A model generated the notes under the pieces. That model ran no database searches and had not been told where the DNA came from. It saw only the letters and a program-made list of their open reading frames with translations. From Rhodococcus sp. 1163 (lineage in GTDB: Bacteria > Actinomycetota > Actinomycetes > Mycobacteriales > Mycobacteriaceae), in assembly GCF_002091985.1 (NCBI RefSeq), contig NZ_MKKX01000028.1:1-64000 (forward strand): a DNA stretch of 64,000 bases, read 5' to 3'. A program made the position numbers and the translations under genes. This document shows, in pieces, positions 48,872-59,106 of the stretch (its first letter is position 1; each line of letters begins with the position of its first letter).

Positions 48872-49540
48872 ATGGCTGCCATCCTGTTCGGATCGATCAG
48901 CACACTTGCCGATACCTCCGAAATTCAACGACAAGCATTCAACGACGCCTTCGCCGCGCACGATCTCGGCTGGACCTGGGAGCGCAAGGACTACATCGAG
49001 ATGCTGGCGAGCAACGGCGGCGCGGCTCGCATCGCCGAATATGCACACTCTCGCGGTGAGGAAGTCGACTCCGCAGCAGTGCATTCCACGAAGTCGGAGA
49101 TCTTTCAGAAGCTGCTGGCCAACTCCGACGTCGACCCGCGCCCCGGCGTCGTCGAGACGATCGCCGATGCCAAGAAGCATGACGTCAAGGTCGGTCTCGT
49201 GACCACCACCTCCCCGGAAAACGTCAATGCACTGCTCGGCGCTCTGACTGCAGTCGACGTCGACTTGTTCGACGTCGTAGTCGATTCCGCGAGTGTCTCG
49301 CAAGGCAAGCCGGATCGGGCGGCGTACATGTTCGCCCTTGGACGCCTCGGCGAGAACGCGAAGAACTGCGTTGCTATCGAAGACAACGTCGGCGGCGTCG
49401 CTGCCGCCGTTGCTGCACACGTTCGCTGCGTCGCTTTTCCCAACGCGAACACGGTAGGGGGCGACTTCTCCGCGGCGGTGGAAACCGTCGATCGTCTCGA
49501 CGCGGATCGGCTCCGCTCGCTGACCGAAGGCAACCGATGA
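48872..49540 (+). CDS. HAD-superfamily protein lacking the catalytic aspartates
   Basis: A 222-residue CbbY/phosphoglucomutase-like HAD protein, first gene of the MAA operon. Motif II ([11 protein letters not shown]), motif III Lys (QGKPDRAAY) and motif IV ([14 protein letters not shown]) are present. Motif I reads [13 protein letters not shown], where the usual F-D-x-D-G-T should be: the nucleophile Asp is Gly and the acid/base Asp is Ile. It therefore should not be a normal phosphatase or mutase. It may be a binding or regulatory partner of the sugar-phosphate cyclase, whose start overlaps its stop by 4 nt, or use different chemistry. Confidence 0.85.
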
Positions 49541-50751
49541 GTTCCATGCAAGCGCAGGTCACAGCAACCGAACGCGCCTTCCACATCGAGGGATACGAAA
49601 AGATCGAGTACGACCTGCTCTACGTAGACGGTGTCTTCTCGGTGGGCAATACGGAACTGGCGGACAGCTACCGGCAGTACGGGCGGGCGCTCATGGTTGT
49701 CGACGAGGTCGTCTACGGAATCTACGGTGAGCAGATCCGTGCGTACTTCGAGCACCACGACATTGCGTTGACCGTGCTGCCGGTCAAGATCGCCGAGACC
49801 GCCAAGTCGCTCGAGACGTTCGAGCAGATCGTGGGCGAATTCGACAGGTTCGGTCTTGTGCGCACCGAACCGGTTCTGGTCGTCGGTGGTGGGCTCACTA
49901 CCGACGTCGCCGGGTACGCGTGCGCAAGCTACCGACGCAATACCCCGTACATCAGAATTCCGACGACGCTGATCGGATTGATCGATGCAAGCGTGTCCAT
50001 CAAGGTCGCCGTGAATTTCGGAAAGCACAAGAATCGTCTGGGCGCCTACCACGCTTCGCAAAGGGTCCTGTTGGACTTTTCGTTCCTCCGTACGCTCCCG
50101 GAGGATCAGGTCCGTAACGGCATGGCGGAGTTGATCAAGATCTCCGTGGTAGGGAACAGTGCAATTTTCGACATGCTCGACGAACACGGTCCGGAACTAC
50201 TCCGCACCAGATTCGGGCACCTCGATGGAACTCCCGAATTACGCGCTGTTGCAGACAGTCTGACGTACCAGGCCATCGACACCATGCTCGAACTCGAGGC
50301 GCCGAATCTGCACGAGATCGAACTCGATCGCGTTATCGCCTTCGGCCACACGTGGAGCCCGACGCTGGAATTGACGCCACCGGCGCCGTTCTTTCACGGA
50401 CATGCGATCAATATCGACATGGCGTTGTCGACCACTCTCGCCGAGCAGCGCGGGCACATCACCTCCGAAGAGCGCGATCGAGTACTCGGGACCATGTCCC
50501 GCCTCGGCCTCGCGCTCGACAGTGACTACCTGACGCCCGAATTACTCTCCGAGGCAACAGGTTCGATCCTCAAGACTCGCGATGGCATTCTGCGCGCCGC
50601 AGTTCCCGACCCGATCGGAGCGTGCCGCTTCCTGAACGATGTGACGACGGCAGAGCTCGCCGACGTGTTGACGTTGCACAAGAAGATCTGCTTGGACTTC
50701 GACCGCGGCGGAGACGGAGTAGACACGTTCACCTCCGCTCAGAGCCGGTGA
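49537..50751 (+). CDS. mysA: Sugar-phosphate cyclase, probable demethyl-4-deoxygadusol synthase
   Basis: A 404-residue dehydroquinate-synthase-superfamily protein. It shows [21 protein letters not shown] (NAD/metal loop), [52 protein letters not shown], and [11 protein letters not shown] with a metal His. The [14 protein letters not shown] and [10 protein letters not shown] blocks distinguish C7-cyclitol synthases from true dehydroquinate synthases. Followed at once by an O-methyltransferase, it is best read as demethyl-4-deoxygadusol synthase, acting on sedoheptulose 7-phosphate in MAA synthesis. 2-epi-5-epi-valiolone synthase is the main alternative by sequence, but context argues against it. 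Confidence 0.87.
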
Positions 50752-51566
50752 GTGACATCGACTCTCGCACAAAACAGAAGCGGCCGGTCACGCCGTCGAC
50801 CATCCTTGCCGCGGAATTGCGGGAGGTGACCGAACTGCTGGCAGATGTGGCTTCGATTCCGGACGTGCTGATGAGCCGGATCAGCCGCATGCGAGATCTG
50901 GCTGCGGGGCTCGATCCGTACCTCGAACGCTGTACCACGGAAGAGTCTCCGGCCCTGGCAGCGTTGTCGCAGCGGACGCATGCTGCCGACTGGACTTCGC
51001 GGCCAGTGGAGCAGGAAATGTTGTCCGGGCAGGTCGAGGGCCAGTTCCTGAAGTTCCTGGTGCACATGACCGGAGCGAGAAGAGTGCTCGAGATCGGCAT
51101 GTTCACCGGCTACTCCGCGCTGGCCATGGCAGAGGCTCTCCCGCCGAACGGGGAAGTGGTGGCCTGTGAGGTCGACGAGTTCGTGGCCGACTTCGCGCGG
51201 GAGAGCTTTGCAAAATCTCCGGCGGGCGCGCGCATCGTCGTCGAAGTCGGGCCGGCCTCGGAAACTCTGCGTCGGCTCGATGGAACCTCACGTCCCTTCG
51301 ACCTCGTATTCGTCGATGCTGACAAAACCGGATATCTCGACTACTACCGGATGCTGCTCGATACCGATCTGCTGACCGCGGACGCAGTCATCGTCGTGGA
51401 CAACACGTTGATGCAGGGTCAGCCCTACGCGCCTGCGGACGGACGGACGGGTAACGGTGACGCGATCGCGGACTTCAACCGCTACGTTGCCGAGGACCCC
51501 CGCGTCGAGCAGATTCTTCTGCCGTTGCGAGACGGTGTGACGCTCGTTCGACGGGTATCGGCGTAA
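50748..51566 (+). CDS. mysB: O-methyltransferase of MAA synthesis
   Basis: A 272-residue class I methyltransferase of the CCoAOMT/COMT-like type. [23 protein letters not shown] is the SAM-binding entry, followed by [28 protein letters not shown] with the metal-binding Asp pair, and [11 protein letters not shown]. It should methylate demethyl-4-deoxygadusol to 4-deoxygadusol. The GTG at 50748 overlaps the mysA stop (GTGA); longer frames run inside mysA. A Ser/Thr/Pro-rich N-terminus of about 60 residues precedes the fold. Confidence 0.88.
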
Positions 51567-52882
51567 TGGGCATGGCGTCGTCGACGGTACGCACGGTCGG
51601 GGCGTTGGCAGGTTTGCTCGCCACGTTGCCACTCGATCTTGCCGTGGTGGGCTATGCCCTGGCGCGGCGCTTCGATCCACCCTTCGGTCCGCGCGTCCAT
51701 CCGATGGGTGCGGCGAGCCGGACGGTGCTGATCAGTGGTGGAAAAATGACCAAAGCGCTCCAGCTGGCACGGTCGTTCCATCTCGCCGGCCACCGCGTCG
51801 TGCTCGTCGAATCATCCAAGTATCGGTTCACCGGACATCGGTTCTCACGGGCAGTCGATCGCTTCTATTGCGTGCCGGAGCCCACCGATCCCGGATACGC
51901 GAAAGCCTTGCGCGACGTGGTCGTTCGAGAAGGTGTCGACGTCTTCGTTCCGGTGGCGAGTCCGGCCGCGAGTATCCACGATGCCGACGCGCGGAAGATA
52001 CTCGACGGATACTGCGAAGTCGTGCACGCAGACTCCGACACCGTGCGCATGCTCGACGACAAATCGCGATTCTCGGAGACGGCGGAGTCGATGGGACTAC
52101 GGGTTCCGCACTGGGAGCGGATCACCGACCCGCGGCAGATCGAGACGTTCGATTTCGCTCCTGGGCGTGAGTACATCCTCAAACGTATCGCCTACAACCC
52201 CGTCGGGCGGATGGATCTGACGCGCTTGTCCGGCAGCACCCGGAAGCGGAATGTCGAGTTCGCACGCAGCCTCGCCATGACCGAGGACGACCCGTGGATC
52301 TTGCAGGAGTTCATCTCCGGTCAGGAGTACTGCACCCACGGAACCGTGCGCAACGGCGCGCTGCAGGTCTACGCATGCTGCGAGTCCTCGGCTTTCCAGG
52401 TCAACTACGAGATGATCGACAAGCCCGAGATTCGTTCCTGGGTAGAGGCATTCGTCAATACGCTCGGCGTCACCGGCCAGTTGTCCTTCGATTTCATCGA
52501 GGCTTCGGACGGGCATGCCTATGCGATCGAATGCAATCCGCGCACGCACTCGGCGATCACGATGTTCTACGACCACCCGGATCTCGCTGCTGCCTACCTC
52601 GAGGACGGTCACTCGGTCGCCGAACCCACCCAGTCCTCGCGCCCGACGTACTGGATCTATCACGAACTTTGGCGATTGCTCACCGAGCCGCGGCGCAGTC
52701 ATCGACTCCGGGTGATTCTGAGCGGAACCGATGCGGTGTACGAAAGTTGGGACCCGTTGCCCTACCTGCTGGTTCATCACCTGCAGATTCCTTCGCTGTT
52801 GCTGAAGAACCTGAAGTCCGGGCGAGGTTGGACGCGAATAGATTTCAACATCGGCAAACTCGTCGAGAATGGAGGGGACTGA
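51566..52882 (+). CDS. mysC: ATP-grasp ligase of MAA synthesis (mycosporine-glycine synthase type)
   Basis: A 438-residue ATP-grasp protein. A hydrophobic N-terminal stretch (VGALAGLLATLPLDLAVVGYALA) may be a membrane anchor. The pre-ATP-grasp domain has TVLISGGKMTKALQLARSF, then the core EYILKRIAYNPVGRMDLT, WILQEFISGQEYCTHG, and the metal site FIEASDGHAYAIECNPRTHSA. By homology of operon order it should condense glycine with 4-deoxygadusol to mycosporine-glycine. It starts one base into the mysB stop (TAATG). Confidence 0.87.
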   Translation: MGMASSTVRTVGALAGLLATLPLDLAVVGYALARRFDPPFGPRVHPMGAASRTVLISGGKMTKALQLARSFHLAGHRVVLVESSKYRFTGHRFSRAVDRFYCVPEPTDPGYAKALRDVVVREGVDVFVPVASPAASIHDADARKILDGYCEVVHADSDTVRMLDDKSRFSETAESMGLRVPHWERITDPRQIETFDFAPGREYILKRIAYNPVGRMDLTRLSGSTRKRNVEFARSLAMTEDDPWILQEFISGQEYCTHGTVRNGALQVYACCESSAFQVNYEMIDKPEIRSWVEAFVNTLGVTGQLSFDFIEASDGHAYAIECNPRTHSAITMFYDHPDLAAAYLEDGHSVAEPTQSSRPTYWIYHELWRLLTEPRRSHRLRVILSGTDAVYESWDPLPYLLVHHLQIPSLLLKNLKSGRGWTRIDFNIGKLVENGGD

Positions 52883-53916
52883 TGTCACCGACATCGGTAC
52901 TGGTCCTGGCGGGTTCGGCAGTGGACGACTTCAACGCCGATCTCTCGCGCGTCTACGCCGGGGGATTCCTCGATGCGTTCGCCGAGAACCCGGCCTACAA
53001 TCTTCGGATCGCGTTCGTCACCCCGGACGGGTGCTGGCGCTTTCCGGACAACATTGAATCGTCGAGTATCGAAGCAGCGCAACCTGTATCGCTGAGTCGC
53101 GCAATCTCGGAGATATCGACCTGGCATATCGACGTCGTCGTTCCCCAGATGTTCTGCAGGCCCGGGATGACAACGTACCGCTCGCTGTTCGAACTGCTCG
53201 GCATTCCGTATGTGGGGAACCGTCCTGAAGTGATGGCGATGACGGCAGAGAAGAACATTGCCCGCGCTGTCGTCGCGGCAGCCGGCGTCGCCGTTCCCGC
53301 CGGGGTTCTCCTTTCCCGCGGCGACCTGACGAGAACAGAATTGTCGACGGCTATGGTGCCGGTCGTGGTCAAGCCCGTCGATTCCGATAATTCGATGGGT
53401 GTGACACTGGTTCGCGATCCGGCCGAACTCGCCGCAGCAGTGAACGAAGCGTTGAAGTACTCGCAATCGGCACTCATCGAGTCGTATATCGAATTGGGCC
53501 GCGAAGTGCGCTGCGGAATCATCGTCCGCAACGGTGACCTGGTGTGCCTACCGTTGGAGGAGTACGCCGTCGACGAGGTGTCGAACCCGATCCGGGGCCG
53601 TGCCGACAAGCTCGACCGGACCGATGACGGTGAGCTGTACCTCGTTGCCAAGGAGTCCACTCGCGCCTGGATGGTCGAGAGCGACGATCCCATCACCGAG
53701 AAAGTCTTCGATGCTGCCAGGCGATGCCACCTCGCGCTGGGGTGCCGTCAGTACAGCTTGTTCGATTTCCGTATCGATCGAGACGGAAACCCGTGGTTCC
53801 TCGAAGCCGGTCTCTACTGCTCGTACTCCCCGAGCAGTGTCATCGCCGTCATGGCGGCGGCGGCAGGCATTCCCCTCGACGAACTGTTCGCCCTGGCGAT
53901 AGCCGAGGTGAACTGA
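52882..53916 (+). CDS. mysD: D-Ala-D-Ala-ligase-like MAA synthetase
   Basis: A 344-residue ATP-grasp ligase of the Ddl fold. The N-terminal domain has VLVLAGSAVDDFNADLSRVYAGGF, then PVVVKPVDSDNSMGVTLV, ALIESYIELGREVRCGI, and SLFDFRIDRDGNPWFLEAGL followed by CSYSPSSVI. The last block differs from cell-wall Ddl enzymes, which have E-x-N-x-x-P-G, so it is a specialised member. It should add a second amino acid (often Ser, Thr or Ala) to mycosporine-glycine to give an imino-mycosporine. It overlaps mysC by one base (TGATG). Confidence 0.87.
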   Translation: MSPTSVLVLAGSAVDDFNADLSRVYAGGFLDAFAENPAYNLRIAFVTPDGCWRFPDNIESSSIEAAQPVSLSRAISEISTWHIDVVVPQMFCRPGMTTYRSLFELLGIPYVGNRPEVMAMTAEKNIARAVVAAAGVAVPAGVLLSRGDLTRTELSTAMVPVVVKPVDSDNSMGVTLVRDPAELAAAVNEALKYSQSALIESYIELGREVRCGIIVRNGDLVCLPLEEYAVDEVSNPIRGRADKLDRTDDGELYLVAKESTRAWMVESDDPITEKVFDAARRCHLALGCRQYSLFDFRIDRDGNPWFLEAGLYCSYSPSSVIAVMAAAAGIPLDELFALAIAEVN

Positions 53917-54677
53917 TGAAACACGAGATTCTGCACCCGTTCGGGGTCCGTATCACCGAAGTCGACCCCGCCCGTTCGACTACCGAAGACGTCGAGGAGT
54001 TCGCGACCCTTCTCGCTCGGCACGGCGTCGCAGTCATGCCCGATCACGAGATCGACGACGACCAGTTCCTGGCGTTTCTTCGTTCCTTCGGCGAGCTGAT
54101 GTTCACCGAAGGGGAGAGCCCGCTCGATGGCTATCCCGATCTCAACGTGATCAGCAATGTCGGAAGATCGACCCCACCGAAGTCGACGTTTCACGTCGAT
54201 ACCACCTACATCGAGCACCCGCCTGCCTACACTTCGCTGCGAGCAGTGCAAGTCCCGACCACGGGCGGCCAGACGCTGTTCAGTAATCAGTACGACGCCT
54301 ATGACACTTTGCCAGCCGAGATCCGCGCCGACATCGACGGGCGAACTGTCACACACGTGGTGACCGGACTGGAAGGATTCGAGGATGTGTCAGCGAAGCA
54401 TCCGCTGGTCCGAGTGCATCCGATCTCCGGACGGAAGGCTCTGTACCTTTCCGCGCCTGCCCGCTGTGTGGCGGTGAGCGGCAAGACGGAAGCCGAAGCA
54501 GCAACGCTGATCCGCCATCTCGTGGAGCACTCGACACGACCGGAAAACGTGCTCGAGCACTCGTGGTCACCCGGTGACGTCGTCATCTGGGACAACCGCT
54601 GCGTCATGCACCGCGCGGACCACAGCGGTGTCGTCGGTGACCGCGTAATGCACCGCGGAATGGTGGCCGAGAGCTGA
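53916..54677 (+). CDS. TauD/TfdA family Fe(II)/2-oxoglutarate dioxygenase
   Basis: A 253-residue oxygenase at the end of the MAA operon, overlapping mysD by one base. FHVDTTYIEHPPAYTSLRA holds the H-x-D metal ligands, VIWDNRCVMHRAD the distal His, and VMHRGM the 2-oxoglutarate Arg. It is of the TauD type, not the phytanoyl-CoA type used by the cyanobacterial palythine enzyme MysH. The strict coupling suggests it tailors the MAA, for instance by hydroxylation, oxidative decarboxylation or demethylation. No specific reaction can be read from the sequence. Confidence 0.85.
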   Translation: MKHEILHPFGVRITEVDPARSTTEDVEEFATLLARHGVAVMPDHEIDDDQFLAFLRSFGELMFTEGESPLDGYPDLNVISNVGRSTPPKSTFHVDTTYIEHPPAYTSLRAVQVPTTGGQTLFSNQYDAYDTLPAEIRADIDGRTVTHVVTGLEGFEDVSAKHPLVRVHPISGRKALYLSAPARCVAVSGKTEAEAATLIRHLVEHSTRPENVLEHSWSPGDVVIWDNRCVMHRADHSGVVGDRVMHRGMVAES

Positions 54678-54745: not shown

Positions 54746-56926
54746 ATGGCCGAACCGATCGACGAGCACTTTCTGGATCGAATCGGTTCCCTCTGCTCGG
54801 GCAGTAGCGCGGTGAGCCGGTCAGCGAAAACCGACCGCGTCCTCGAGCTGTTCGACGCCCAACTCGGCAGCAGACATCTCGATCTCGCAGCGCGCTGGCT
54901 CCGCTCGATCGGCCGAGGTTTCTACACGATCGGTAGCGCCGGACACGAGAGCAACGCAGCCGTCGCCGGTGCACTACGACCGACGGACCCGGCGTTGTTG
55001 CACTACCGCTCGGGAGCCTTCTACCTCGAACGTGCACGCCAGGGCGGTGGTAGCGATCCGATACGCGACGTCCTCGAAGGCCTCGTCGCGGCGACGAGCG
55101 AACCGATGTCCGGTGGCCGTCACAAAGTGTTCGGCCGAGCCGATCTCGCCGTCATTCCACAGACCTCGACCATTGCCTCGCATCTTCCCCGCGCAGTCGG
55201 CGTCGCATTCTCGATTCCACGAGCGAAAAAGCTCGGTGTGCCCTCACCGTGGCCTACGGATGCTGTCGTGCTCTGCAGTTTCGGCGACGCGTCGGCCAAC
55301 CATTCGACGGCCCTGGGGGCCATCAACACCGCTGTTCACTCGGCTTATCAGGGCGTGCCGTTGCCGCTGCTGTTCGTCTGCGAGGACAACGGCATCGGAA
55401 TCAGCGTGCGGACACCGGCGGGTTGGATCGCGTCCAACTTCGCCGAACGCCGCGGGCTCGAATACTTCTGCGCCGACGGCAGTGACCTGCACGAAGTTCT
55501 CGCGACGGCGACGGCCGCAGCGACGTGGGTGCGAACGCACCGCAAGCCGGCTTTTCTGCATCTGCGGACCGTCCGCTTGATGGGCCACGCCGGATCCGAC
55601 GTCGAATCTGCGTACCGTGGAGCTTCGGAAATTTCTGCCGACTATGCGCGAGATCCGGTTCTCTGCACGGCACGGTGGTTGATCGAGAATGGCGCTCTCT
55701 CGGCCGAGGGCGTGCTGGAGCTTTACGAAGCCAAGCGTGCTGAGGTGATCGGGGCTGCACGTGAAATCGCGAAGCTACCGCACCTCGGTTCCGCCGCGGA
55801 GGTGATGAAGCCGCTTTCGGAGATGATGCGCGACATCGTCTCGACGCCGCAGGCAGGCTCTACATCGTCTGCGGCAGCGATTGAGGCGGGGGCAGGGGCT
55901 CCGCTGACGTTGGCGCAGGCGGTGAACCGAGCGTTGCTCGAGGTTCTCGAACGCTATCGGCAGGCTGTTCTGTTCGGTGAGGATGTCGCCAGGAAGGGTG
56001 GGGTCTACGGCGTCACGCGCGGGTTGCTGGACAGCGTGGGGCCTACGCGTGTGTTCGACACCGTTCTCGACGAGCAGGCGATACTTGGACTCGCTGCGGG
56101 AGCAGGCATTTCGGGATTGCTGCCGATTGCGGAGATTCAGTATCTGGCCTACCTGCACAACGCGGCTGATCAGATTCGGGGTGAAGCGGCGACACTGCAG
56201 TTCTTTTCGAATCGGCAGTACCGAAACCCGATGGTGGTCCGTATCGCTGCCTACGGCTATCAGAAAGGCTTCGGCGGACACTTTCACAACGACAATGCTG
56301 TTGCAGCGCTGAGGGATATCCCCGGGATCGTCATAGCGTCGCCGTCGCGGCCAGACGATGCTGCCGCGATGTTGCTTGCCTGCTCCGATGCAGCGGTGCG
56401 TCACGGTGCGGTGTGCGTCTTTCTCGAGCCGATTGCCTTGTATCACACCAAAGATCTGTACATCGAGGGTGACGGGGAGTGGATGAGCAGCTATCCGACC
56501 GAACCCGTGGAGGTCGGCCGCGCGCGGGTGTACGGCGAGGGAAACGATCTGACGATCGTCACGTTCGGCAACGGTGTCCGGATGAGCCTGCGCTGTGCGC
56601 GGGAGCTCGAAAAGGTCGGCATCGGTGTACGCGTGGTGGATATACGCTGGATCGCTCCGCTGCCCATCGCGGACATCGAACATCATGCTCGTGCGACCGG
56701 TCGCGTCCTGGTGGCCGACGAGACTCGCAGCACGGGCGGAGTCGGTGAAGGAGTGATCGCGGCGCTGGCCGACGCAGGCTTCGACGGCATCGTCCGCAGG
56801 GTGGCGAGCAAGGACAGCTTCATCCCCCTGGGCGACGCGGCACTCGAGGTTCTGCTGTCCGAGGACGGCATCATCGACGCTTCAGGCCGAATCTTTGACG
56901 GTGTCGACGAAGGGGGCGAGCAGTGA
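54746..56926 (+). CDS. Fused 2-oxoacid dehydrogenase E1 (alpha-beta)
   Basis: A 726-residue thiamine-diphosphate enzyme in which E1-alpha and E1-beta are one chain. The alpha part has YTIGSAGHESNAAVAGAL and the TPP motif FGDASANHSTALGAINTA. The beta part starts near residue 388 (LTLAQAVNRALLEVLERY) and has VLFGEDVARKGGVYGVT, FGNGVRMSLRCA and VRVVDIRWIAPLP. It resembles branched-chain oxoacid dehydrogenase E1; no E2 or E3 gene is close. TAGAAT (54735-54740) ends six bases before the ATG and there is no RBS, suggesting a leaderless transcript from its own promoter rather than read-through from the MAA operon. Confidence 0.88.
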   Translation: MAEPIDEHFLDRIGSLCSGSSAVSRSAKTDRVLELFDAQLGSRHLDLAARWLRSIGRGFYTIGSAGHESNAAVAGALRPTDPALLHYRSGAFYLERARQGGGSDPIRDVLEGLVAATSEPMSGGRHKVFGRADLAVIPQTSTIASHLPRAVGVAFSIPRAKKLGVPSPWPTDAVVLCSFGDASANHSTALGAINTAVHSAYQGVPLPLLFVCEDNGIGISVRTPAGWIASNFAERRGLEYFCADGSDLHEVLATATAAATWVRTHRKPAFLHLRTVRLMGHAGSDVESAYRGASEISADYARDPVLCTARWLIENGALSAEGVLELYEAKRAEVIGAAREIAKLPHLGSAAEVMKPLSEMMRDIVSTPQAGSTSSAAAIEAGAGAPLTLAQAVNRALLEVLERYRQAVLFGEDVARKGGVYGVTRGLLDSVGPTRVFDTVLDEQAILGLAAGAGISGLLPIAEIQYLAYLHNAADQIRGEAATLQFFSNRQYRNPMVVRIAAYGYQKGFGGHFHNDNAVAALRDIPGIVIASPSRPDDAAAMLLACSDAAVRHGAVCVFLEPIALYHTKDLYIEGDGEWMSSYPTEPVEVGRARVYGEGNDLTIVTFGNGVRMSLRCARELEKVGIGVRVVDIRWIAPLPIADIEHHARATGRVLVADETRSTGGVGEGVIAALADAGFDGIVRRVASKDSFIPLGDAALEVLLSEDGIIDASGRIFDGVDEGGEQ

Positions 56927-57523
56927 CGCCATATCGGCGGCGACGTCGGCGGAATTCGACGGTGGCATCGATATATAGCTCAACGCCAGCCGCACGACGG
57001 CACGGCCGAGGACGTCGGCGTTGTGCGGTGAGGCCCTAATCCAACTGTGCTCGAAGGTCTCGGCAAGTCGAGATGCGGCGTGTTCGAGCAGAATTCCGCT
57101 TTCGGTGGTGACGAGACGAAGTAGATCCGGTGGTGGGTCATCGGTCAGTATCGACAACACGAGTGGGTCGGTGGCGCTCCGACCGAAAAACTGGGCGAAG
57201 GCCAGATACAACGTGCGAAGGCTGTCGTTCTCGTTGGCATAGATTGCGCTGTCGACGGCCGAGACGAAGGTGTCGGTGAGTCGCAACGCGTAGCCCTGTG
57301 CCAAACCCTTTCTGGTGCCGAACTCCTTGTAGAGGGTTTGGCGACTGACCCCCGCAGTCTTGGCGACGTCCGTCATGTTGACGTTCGACCAGGTGTGCTC
57401 GAGAAGTAGAGAGTGAAGCGCATCGAGGATGGTGGTGCGCATCAGGCTGGTCACAGCGCTCTTGTAAGGGCTGGTCGTCTCCGGTCGCACGGTCACTTCG
57501 TCGACATTACCGCCCGCCGTCAC
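56882..57523 (-). CDS. alkU: TetR-family regulator of alkane hydroxylase operon
   Basis: A 213-residue TetR protein: [38 protein letters not shown] is a textbook helix-turn-helix near residues 30-66. It is the last gene of an alkB-rubA1-rubA2-tetR operon, the standard Rhodococcus arrangement, where the regulator is called alkU. The GTG at 57523 overlaps the rubA2 stop (GTGA) and matches the coupling upstream; the longer ORF lies inside rubA2. It ends 45 nt inside the convergent E1 gene. Confidence 0.85.
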
Positions 57524-57705
57524 GGCCTGCTGATCTCGACCATGAAGAAGTCGGCCTTGGCGGCACCACAATCGGGACAGCTCCAGTCCTCCGGGATGTC
57601 TTCCCATCTGGTCCCCGGCTCGATGCCGTCATCGGGCCAGCCGACTTCCTCGTCGTACTCGAATCCGCATTGGATGCATTGGTAGAGCTTGAAATCGGTG
57701 GACAT
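57520..57705 (-). CDS. rubA2: Rubredoxin (second)
   Basis: A 61-residue rubredoxin: [19 protein letters not shown], then [17 protein letters not shown], giving the two C-x-x-C knuckles for one Fe. It carries electrons to AlkB. It starts one base after the first rubredoxin gene stops and is followed by the overlapping tetR gene. Confidence 0.95.
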
Positions 57706-57706
57706 A

Positions 57707-57874
57707 TCAGTCTGCTTTCTGTTCGAAGTCGATCTTCTCTCGCACGCCGCAGTCCGGGCACGGCCAGTCTTCGGCAATGTCGGTCCACGGGGTGCCGGCC
57801 GGAAATCCTTCACGCGGTGCGCCGACGGTCTCGTCGTAGACGAAGTTGCACACGGGGCATTGGTAACTGGCCAT
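57707..57874 (-). CDS. rubA1: Rubredoxin (first)
   Basis: A 55-residue rubredoxin: [18 protein letters not shown], then [17 protein letters not shown]. Both C-x-x-C pairs are intact. The ATG overlaps the alkB stop by one base. Two rubredoxins after alkB are typical of actinobacterial alkane operons; one usually serves AlkB directly. Confidence 0.95.
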
Positions 57875-59106
57875 CACTGCGCCTCTGGAGTCGCACCGTA
57901 GCGAGCAAGGATCTTCGCGCGCTTGCTCGGTTCGATGTTGACGTTGGTGATGTCACCGAGGTAGTGCTCCATCACCCTGTGGTCCATCACCTTTCGCCAG
58001 ATGGGCGGGAAGTAGGCGAGGGCGATCATGCTTGCGTAACCGCTCGGGAGGTTCGGTGCGCCTTCCATGCTGCGCAAGGTCTGGTACCTGCGGGTCGGGT
58101 TCGCGTGGTGATCGCTGTGCCGCTGAAGGTGATAAAGGAAGATATTGGTGACGATGTGATCGGAGTTCCAACTGTGCTCCGGCGCGCACCGCTCGTATCG
58201 GCCGGAGGCCGTCTTACCGCGTAGCAGCCCGTAATGTTCCAGGTAGTTGACGGTTTCGAGGAGCGCGAATCCGTAGACGGCCTGCAGAATCAGGTAGGGC
58301 GCGATACCGATGCCGAACACGGCGATGAGTCCGCCGAACAACACGACCGACATCAACCATGCGTTGAGGACATCGTTGCGGATGTTCCACGTGGACTTAC
58401 CGAGTCGATCCATGCGCGTCTTCTCCAGCTCCCACGACGAGCGCAGGCTTCCCCACACGCTGCGGGGGAGGAAGCGCCAGAAGCTTTCGCCGAACTTCGA
58501 GCTCGCCGGGTCTTCCGGTGTTGCGACCCGAACGTGGTGACCGCGGTTGTGCTCGATGAAGAAGTGCCCGTAGAACGTTTGCGCCAGTGTGACTTTGGAC
58601 AGCCAGCGTTCGAGGCTCGGCTTCTTGTGTCCCATTTCGTGTGCCGTGTTGATTCCGACGCCGCCCACGACGCCGATGCTGATGGCGAGTCCGATCTTGG
58701 AGGCGAGTCCGAGGCCGCCGTCGATCCCGAGCCAGCTGAGGTTCTCTGCTGTCCACAGGTAGCAGGCGAAGACGAGGCTCGCGAGCTGGAAGGGGATGTA
58801 GATGTACGTGCAGTAGCGGTAGTACTTGTCGTTCTCCAGGCGCTCCATGACCTCGTCGGGCGGATTCTGACCGTCCGGACCGAAGAACAGATCGAGCACC
58901 GGCAAGAGTCCGTAGACGAGGATCGGCCCGATCCACCACAGCACGGGGGAGACCGCGGACCAGCCGAGTTGGTTGAAGACCCAGATCATCGCGGTGGCGA
59001 AGAAGACGGCGGTGGGCGGGACGAGTCCCATCAGCCATAGGTAACGCTTCTTGTCGTGCCACTCCTCCATGGGGGTGCTCGACTGGGGACTCATCTGGGT
59101 TGCCAC
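57874..59106 (-). CDS. alkB: Alkane 1-monooxygenase
   Basis: A 410-residue integral-membrane diiron hydroxylase with about six helices. The histidine boxes HEMGHKK, EHNRGHH and [11 protein letters not shown] are all present, as is the [10 protein letters not shown] block that distinguishes AlkB from desaturases. It hydroxylates medium-chain n-alkanes at the terminal carbon using rubredoxin. The start lies before the first helix ([10 protein letters not shown]); a palindrome lies 40-60 bp upstream. Confidence 0.95.

Follow-up and report, generated by a model that had tools for sequence, protein, structure and literature searches.

A Rhodococcus operon for a predicted mycosporine-like amino acid includes a CbbY-derived HAD protein that lacks the catalytic aspartates of its family

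In the synthesis of mycosporine-like amino acids (MAAs), demethyl-4-deoxygadusol synthase (DDGS) converts sedoheptulose 7-phosphate to demethyl-4-deoxygadusol, which an O-methyltransferase turns into 4-deoxygadusol. An ATP-grasp ligase adds glycine to give mycosporine-glycine, and a Ddl-like ligase then attaches another amino acid, which gives a product of the shinorine type. Four-gene mysA-D clusters encoding these enzymes are described, in the parts of the literature consulted here, from cyanobacteria and from Actinosynnema and Pseudonocardia (Miyamoto 2014, cited in PMC11888242 and PMC9789016). Two oxygenases of cyanobacterial MAA clusters, MysH (phytanoyl-CoA dioxygenase-like) and MysI (TauD/TfdA-like), have been proposed to form palythines (PMC10510106). 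The relevant passages of a 2025 preprint (PMC11888242) report that a HAD protein and a TauD protein are conserved in actinobacterial MAA clusters, state that both are absent from Cyanobacteriota, and leave the role of the HAD protein open. They also cite a 2018 meeting abstract on unpublished expression work, in which the operon of R. fascians D188, with its HAD and TauD genes, yielded shinorine, palythine and palythine-serine in Streptomyces. The operon that we analyse here is a further member of this already described kind, and closer reports may exist beyond the open-licence literature. The new point is the HAD protein's loss of its catalytic residues, which goes unmentioned in the preprint's passages on this protein. 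It poses the question of why sunscreen synthesis retains a phosphatase-shaped protein without the phosphatase machinery.

The operon lies in a stretch of 64,000 nucleotides ("the window") from Rhodococcus sp. 1163, the genome of which (4.46 Mb) is assembled in 43 contigs. It consists of six consecutive ORFs on the + strand at 48872-54677, with family assignments on which Pfam and NCBIfam concur. The first encodes a HAD-fold protein of the CbbY branch with FGSISTL for FDxDGTL (48872..49540, 222 aa; identified by alignment, tree and model). It is followed by mysA for DDGS, a sugar phosphate cyclase (49537..50751, 404 aa; 5tpr match and tree), mysB for a class I O-methyltransferase (50748..51566, 272 aa; Methyltransf_3, E-value = 5e-51), mysC for an ATP-grasp amino acid ligase of the mycosporine-glycine synthase type (51566..52882, 438 aa; NF005315 above cut-off, position and conservation) and mysD for a D-Ala-D-Ala ligase-like amino acid ligase (52882..53916, 344 aa; Dala_Dala_lig_C). 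The last ORF encodes an Fe(II)/2-oxoglutarate dioxygenase of the TauD/TfdA family, a predicted palythine-forming N-dealkylase (53916..54677, 253 aa; TauD, E-value = 3e-57). Read from the DNA, the HAD and cyclase genes overlap by 4 nt (ATGA), as do the cyclase and O-methyltransferase genes (GTGA, the latter starting with GTG), while the overlap is 1 nt at the O-methyltransferase/ATP-grasp (TAATG), ATP-grasp/Ddl (TGATG) and Ddl/TauD (TGATG) junctions. The six coupled genes with 1-4 nt overlaps and the mysA-D order that a first-pass annotation of this DNA had proposed for an MAA operon are thus borne out, the order recurring across the genus. The four core enzymes and their order are shared with the four-gene clusters as described in the sources above, to which the window adds two genes, HAD first and TauD last. 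Relative to the actinobacterial clusters in the passages of PMC11888242 and to D188, the enzyme families and the genus group are the same. The first-pass annotation had counted both additions as lying outside the basic set; they are indeed present, but as a feature of actinobacterial MAA clusters they were already reported in those passages.

The gap to the next downstream gene is 68 nt, and that to the end of the next upstream gene 216 nt. On both sides the flanks vary even among fairly close relatives: the genes seen here (FAD dehydrogenase, phosphotriesterase-family, fused E1 2-oxoacid dehydrogenase, TetR) occur, if at all, only next to the operon in the four closest relatives, so that it is the six genes themselves that form the conserved unit. 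Across the genus both their order and the tight kind of junction recur, so the arrangement is not due to chance. The nearest relative's HAD and cyclase are 97-98% identical to those of the window. A promoter and terminator scan returned nothing above chance. Inspection of the window by eye also showed a membrane hydroxylase resembling AlkB (57874-59106, - strand; no NCBIfam match) and a rubredoxin-like ORF (57520-57813, - strand), beside a TetR regulator (56882-57607).

The window cyclase is of the DDGS type, and not a 2-epi-5-epi-valiolone synthase (EEVS) or a DHQS. DDGS and EEVS are homologous and six genomes in the genus have EEVS-like cyclases at other loci, which might suggest that the operon leads to a C7-cyclitol antibiotic precursor and not to an MAA; we give this next to no credence. 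The cyclase matches the solved Anabaena DDGS (5tpr) with 552 bits (E-value = 4e-165) versus 277 bits for the EEVS ValA (4p53), and two of its stretches (24 and 11 residues) match DDGS and differ from ValA in the alignments. In a tree of 91 proteins its group comprises 5tpr and every MAA cyclase from cyanobacteria and actinobacteria (support 100), and on the opposite side are ValA and the second cyclases that six genomes of the genus possess; the branches between the DDGS and EEVS groups are long, and the bit scores agree with the tree. The phylogenetic check suggested by the first-pass annotation therefore came out on the DDGS side, and an EEVS identity is rejected on bit scores and tree. The complete mysB-C-D set adjacent to the cyclase also speaks against it. 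The six genomes with a second sugar phosphate cyclase (L064-L069; 38-41% identical, on the ValA side) have no O-methyltransferase near that gene, which possibly belongs to an unrelated C7-cyclitol pathway.

Of the 37 genomes in the genus, 31 have the cyclase, and in nearly every one the complete six-gene set is present in this order. Among 395 sampled Actinomycetes genomes, 11 contain the cyclase at an identity of at least 64%. A scan of species genomes yielded 80 loci, including Nocardioides, Mycobacteriaceae, Williamsia, Pseudonocardia, Actinomycetospora, Kineosporia, Aeromicrobium, Lapillicoccus, cyanobacteria and others. The six-gene operon is the standard layout in the genus and is not rare in actinomycetes; the first-pass annotation's picture of a route established in a few of them is too narrow, given the presence of the set in Mycobacteriaceae, Nocardioidaceae, Pseudonocardiaceae and others. 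A genome of the same family (L087) shows HAD, cyclase, ATP-grasp, Ddl and TauD genes with no recognisable O-methyltransferase between cyclase and ATP-grasp. In a contig labelled Melainabacteria (L109), HAD and cyclase fall among the actinobacterial ones, and the gene order is rearranged, with ATP-grasp and Ddl divergent, for which recent transfer or mis-binning may account.

By sequence and fold, the closest solved relative of the HAD protein is CbbY of Rhodobacter sphaeroides (RsCbbY; 4uar, 4uat, 4uau), a xylulose-1,5-bisphosphate phosphatase with which it aligns over the entire length, HAD core and cap included. The predicted model (pLDDT 95) superposes on 4uar with Z = 29.8 and an rmsd of 2.1 Å over 219 residues at 35% identity. 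Residues of motifs II-IV (T111, K146, E170 and D171), that is the phosphate-site threonine and lysine and the motif IV Glu-Asp pair, are conserved. In contrast, the window protein has FGSISTL where CbbY has FDVDGTL, and all intact copies lack both aspartates of motif I (D-x-D-G), the nucleophile and the acid/base residue, and carry G-S-I-S/G instead. Over 85 distinct HAD sequences, the first three of these positions are Gly in 85, Ser in 84 and Ile in 83; the one sequence far off this pattern is probably a frame-shifted copy (L144). Cyanobacterial copies show GSIS, GSIG or GSMG. D-x-D-G is kept in all ten CbbY-type relatives used as controls (nine proteins from the same searches and RsCbbY). 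Further pocket changes are concerted and fixed (E17S, H20Q, S177N and Y198N in RsCbbY numbering). Relative to RsCbbY, residues D8, D10, G11, E17 and H20, among others, have become fixed G, I, S/G, S and Q, and the aspartyl-phosphate mechanism is predicted to be unusable. The G-S-I proteins form one clade (support 100/99), sister to RsCbbY. A search of IMG/VR with the HAD alignment found no relatives.

Against the four nearest relatives, the HAD gene shows dN/dS values of 0.056-0.085, the cyclase 0.050-0.077 and the other intact operon genes 0.13-0.25. Purifying selection on the HAD gene is as strong as on the cyclase, and a decaying pseudogene is rejected on the low dN/dS and the conservation over 85 sequences. 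With the aspartates lost and the sequence maintained, we are dealing with a kept protein that would be unable to use the aspartyl-phosphate mechanism of its family; being so strictly preserved, it must do something other than phosphate removal. As judged from the residues, the loss excludes the known HAD mechanism and leaves room for some new chemistry. It is very improbable that the protein is an ordinary phosphatase supplying or protecting the cyclase substrate, for instance by converting sedoheptulose bisphosphate to sedoheptulose 7-phosphate. Its closest solved relative is a sugar bisphosphate phosphatase, and in Actinomycetota its gene usually lies directly upstream of that of the cyclase. 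Such a role is nevertheless disfavoured by the aspartates, which are missing from every intact member and kept in all CbbY-type relatives compared, and most cyanobacterial DDGS loci have no HAD gene. Two possibilities are left for the HAD protein, a non-hydrolytic accessory role or new enzyme chemistry.

TauD presents a different picture. Its predicted iron ligands (H93, D95 and H232) and 2-oxoglutarate-binding residue (R243) are invariant in 35 sequences, and its model (pLDDT 94) is closest to the structures of PlaO1 and AAD-1, TauD structures also matching. To judge from these residues, TauD looks like a working tailoring enzyme, whereas the HAD protein is without the residues of its own family's chemistry. 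The two bracketing genes, treated alike in the first-pass annotation, are thus to be distinguished. Like MysH and MysI, TauD belongs to the Fe(II)/2-oxoglutarate oxygenases proposed to take off the glycine carbon unit to give palythines (PMC10510106). MysH is of another oxygenase family, and MysI, which accompanies MysF and MysE in cyanobacteria, is set beside the window TauD by its description in that paper. A plasmid search for MysI with a cyanobacterial TauD found only oxygenases of about 30% identity.

In the 395 actinomycete genomes, strong HAD matches (E-value below 1e-60) are confined to the 11 genomes that have a DDGS of at least 64% identity and are found in each of them, always beside the cyclase. 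Across 97 MAA loci, HAD and TauD occur together in 79, neither is present in 15 (all cyanobacterial), HAD alone in 3 and TauD alone in none. HAD without intact TauD was counted, broken TauD genes included, in eight of 78 distinct loci, one of which (L172) is simply truncated where its contig stops; HAD persists with TauD gone or broken in L034, L041, L092, L093, L145, L173 and possibly L107. Mapped on the cyclase tree, TauD changed state at least 11 times and HAD 3 times, and a paired test found three independent pairs for HAD (p = 0.25). With so few pairs, the HAD-TauD linkage is a pattern and not a proof. The retention of HAD after loss or breakage of TauD argues against a role confined to the TauD step, and the idea of an obligate partner of TauD alone is weakened accordingly. 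That most cyanobacterial loci do without HAD speaks against its taking part in the core route as such. In L034, L041, L093 and L173 the TauD gene is broken or partly deleted with HAD and core genes intact; the predicted end products of these strains are of the shinorine type.

We consider it likely that the operon directs synthesis of an imino-mycosporine that is trimmed to a palythine-type MAA, with the HAD protein as a non-hydrolytic accessory descended from CbbY phosphatases. That the product is an MAA, very probably of the palythine type, is predicted from the gene set. DDGS, O-methyltransferase, ATP-grasp and Ddl-like ligases would give a shinorine-type imino-mycosporine. TauD would then hydroxylate the alpha-carbon of the glycine substituent, and the hydroxylated substituent would leave as glyoxylate to give palythine, as with MysH or the proposed MysI. 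By analogy with MysH and the D188 report, such conversion of shinorine to palythine is most likely what TauD does, and the modified product anticipated by the first-pass annotation is supported as a prediction. The HAD protein, its nucleophile and acid/base aspartates lost, would have been kept as a non-hydrolytic accessory, probably binding a partner enzyme or else a ligand that is sugar-phosphate-like or belongs to the pathway. This explanation draws on what was observed here of the genes present, the type of cyclase, the lost catalytic residues, the selection and the co-occurrence; the D188 products enter it at second hand, as cited from unpublished work in the preprint's passages.

The HAD protein could instead be a working enzyme with a rebuilt pocket and new chemistry, performing a non-hydrolytic step such as splitting TauD's hydroxylated glycine intermediate (a hydroxylase paired with a lyase, the arrangement known from PHM/PAL peptide amidation) or acting on a C7 sugar intermediate. 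The fixed and concerted pocket substitutions, the strong purifying selection, the lack of any TauD without HAD and their joint entry into cyanobacteria would fit such an enzyme. We nevertheless think it unlikely, since several operons keep HAD though TauD is lost or broken, MysH is described as palythine-forming in cyanobacteria, where HAD is mostly absent, and the metal ligands of motif I are gone. A broader statement has in our judgement an even chance of being right: that MAA operons of Actinomycetota and some Cyanobacteria contain a CbbY-derived HAD clade of single origin, which lost the phosphatase mechanism, fixed the new G-S-I-S/G motif and acquired a new non-hydrolytic role, be it catalytic or regulatory, on which TauD-dependent sunscreen tailoring relies and perhaps the core pathway as well. 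That the protein is not a normal phosphatase redirects experiments on its role, left open in the passages of PMC11888242.

In our analysis several MAA loci of cyanobacteria contain HAD and TauD, in contrast to their absence from Cyanobacteriota as stated in the preprint's passages. A HAD search of 339 cyanobacterial genomes matched only the query's own genome, so the gene is rare there. The cyanobacterial HADs form one clade nested inside the actinobacterial HADs, and the cyanobacterial TauDs likewise fall into a single clade, with a branching pattern that matches; in these genomes the cyclases lie in the ordinary cyanobacterial clade. In the cyanobacterial bin GL140_1, the HAD-TauD pair, 9 nt apart, is located on a 173 kb contig (L218, 9133-10662) with no other MAA genes nearby, the core MAA genes being on another contig (L148). 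It appears that some cyanobacteria acquired HAD and TauD jointly, and the simplest reading is that the two moved as a unit. Their joint transfer suggests that palythine engineering with TauD should include HAD. A HAD protein with G-S-I-G, 42% identical to that of the window, is also encoded on plasmid pROLI81 of Roseobacter litoralis (L223, 8989-9660), where its neighbours are genes for TrkA/TrkH potassium uptake and for an L,D-transpeptidase. This plasmid has no MAA cyclase, and the G-S-I family is thus wider than MAA operons.
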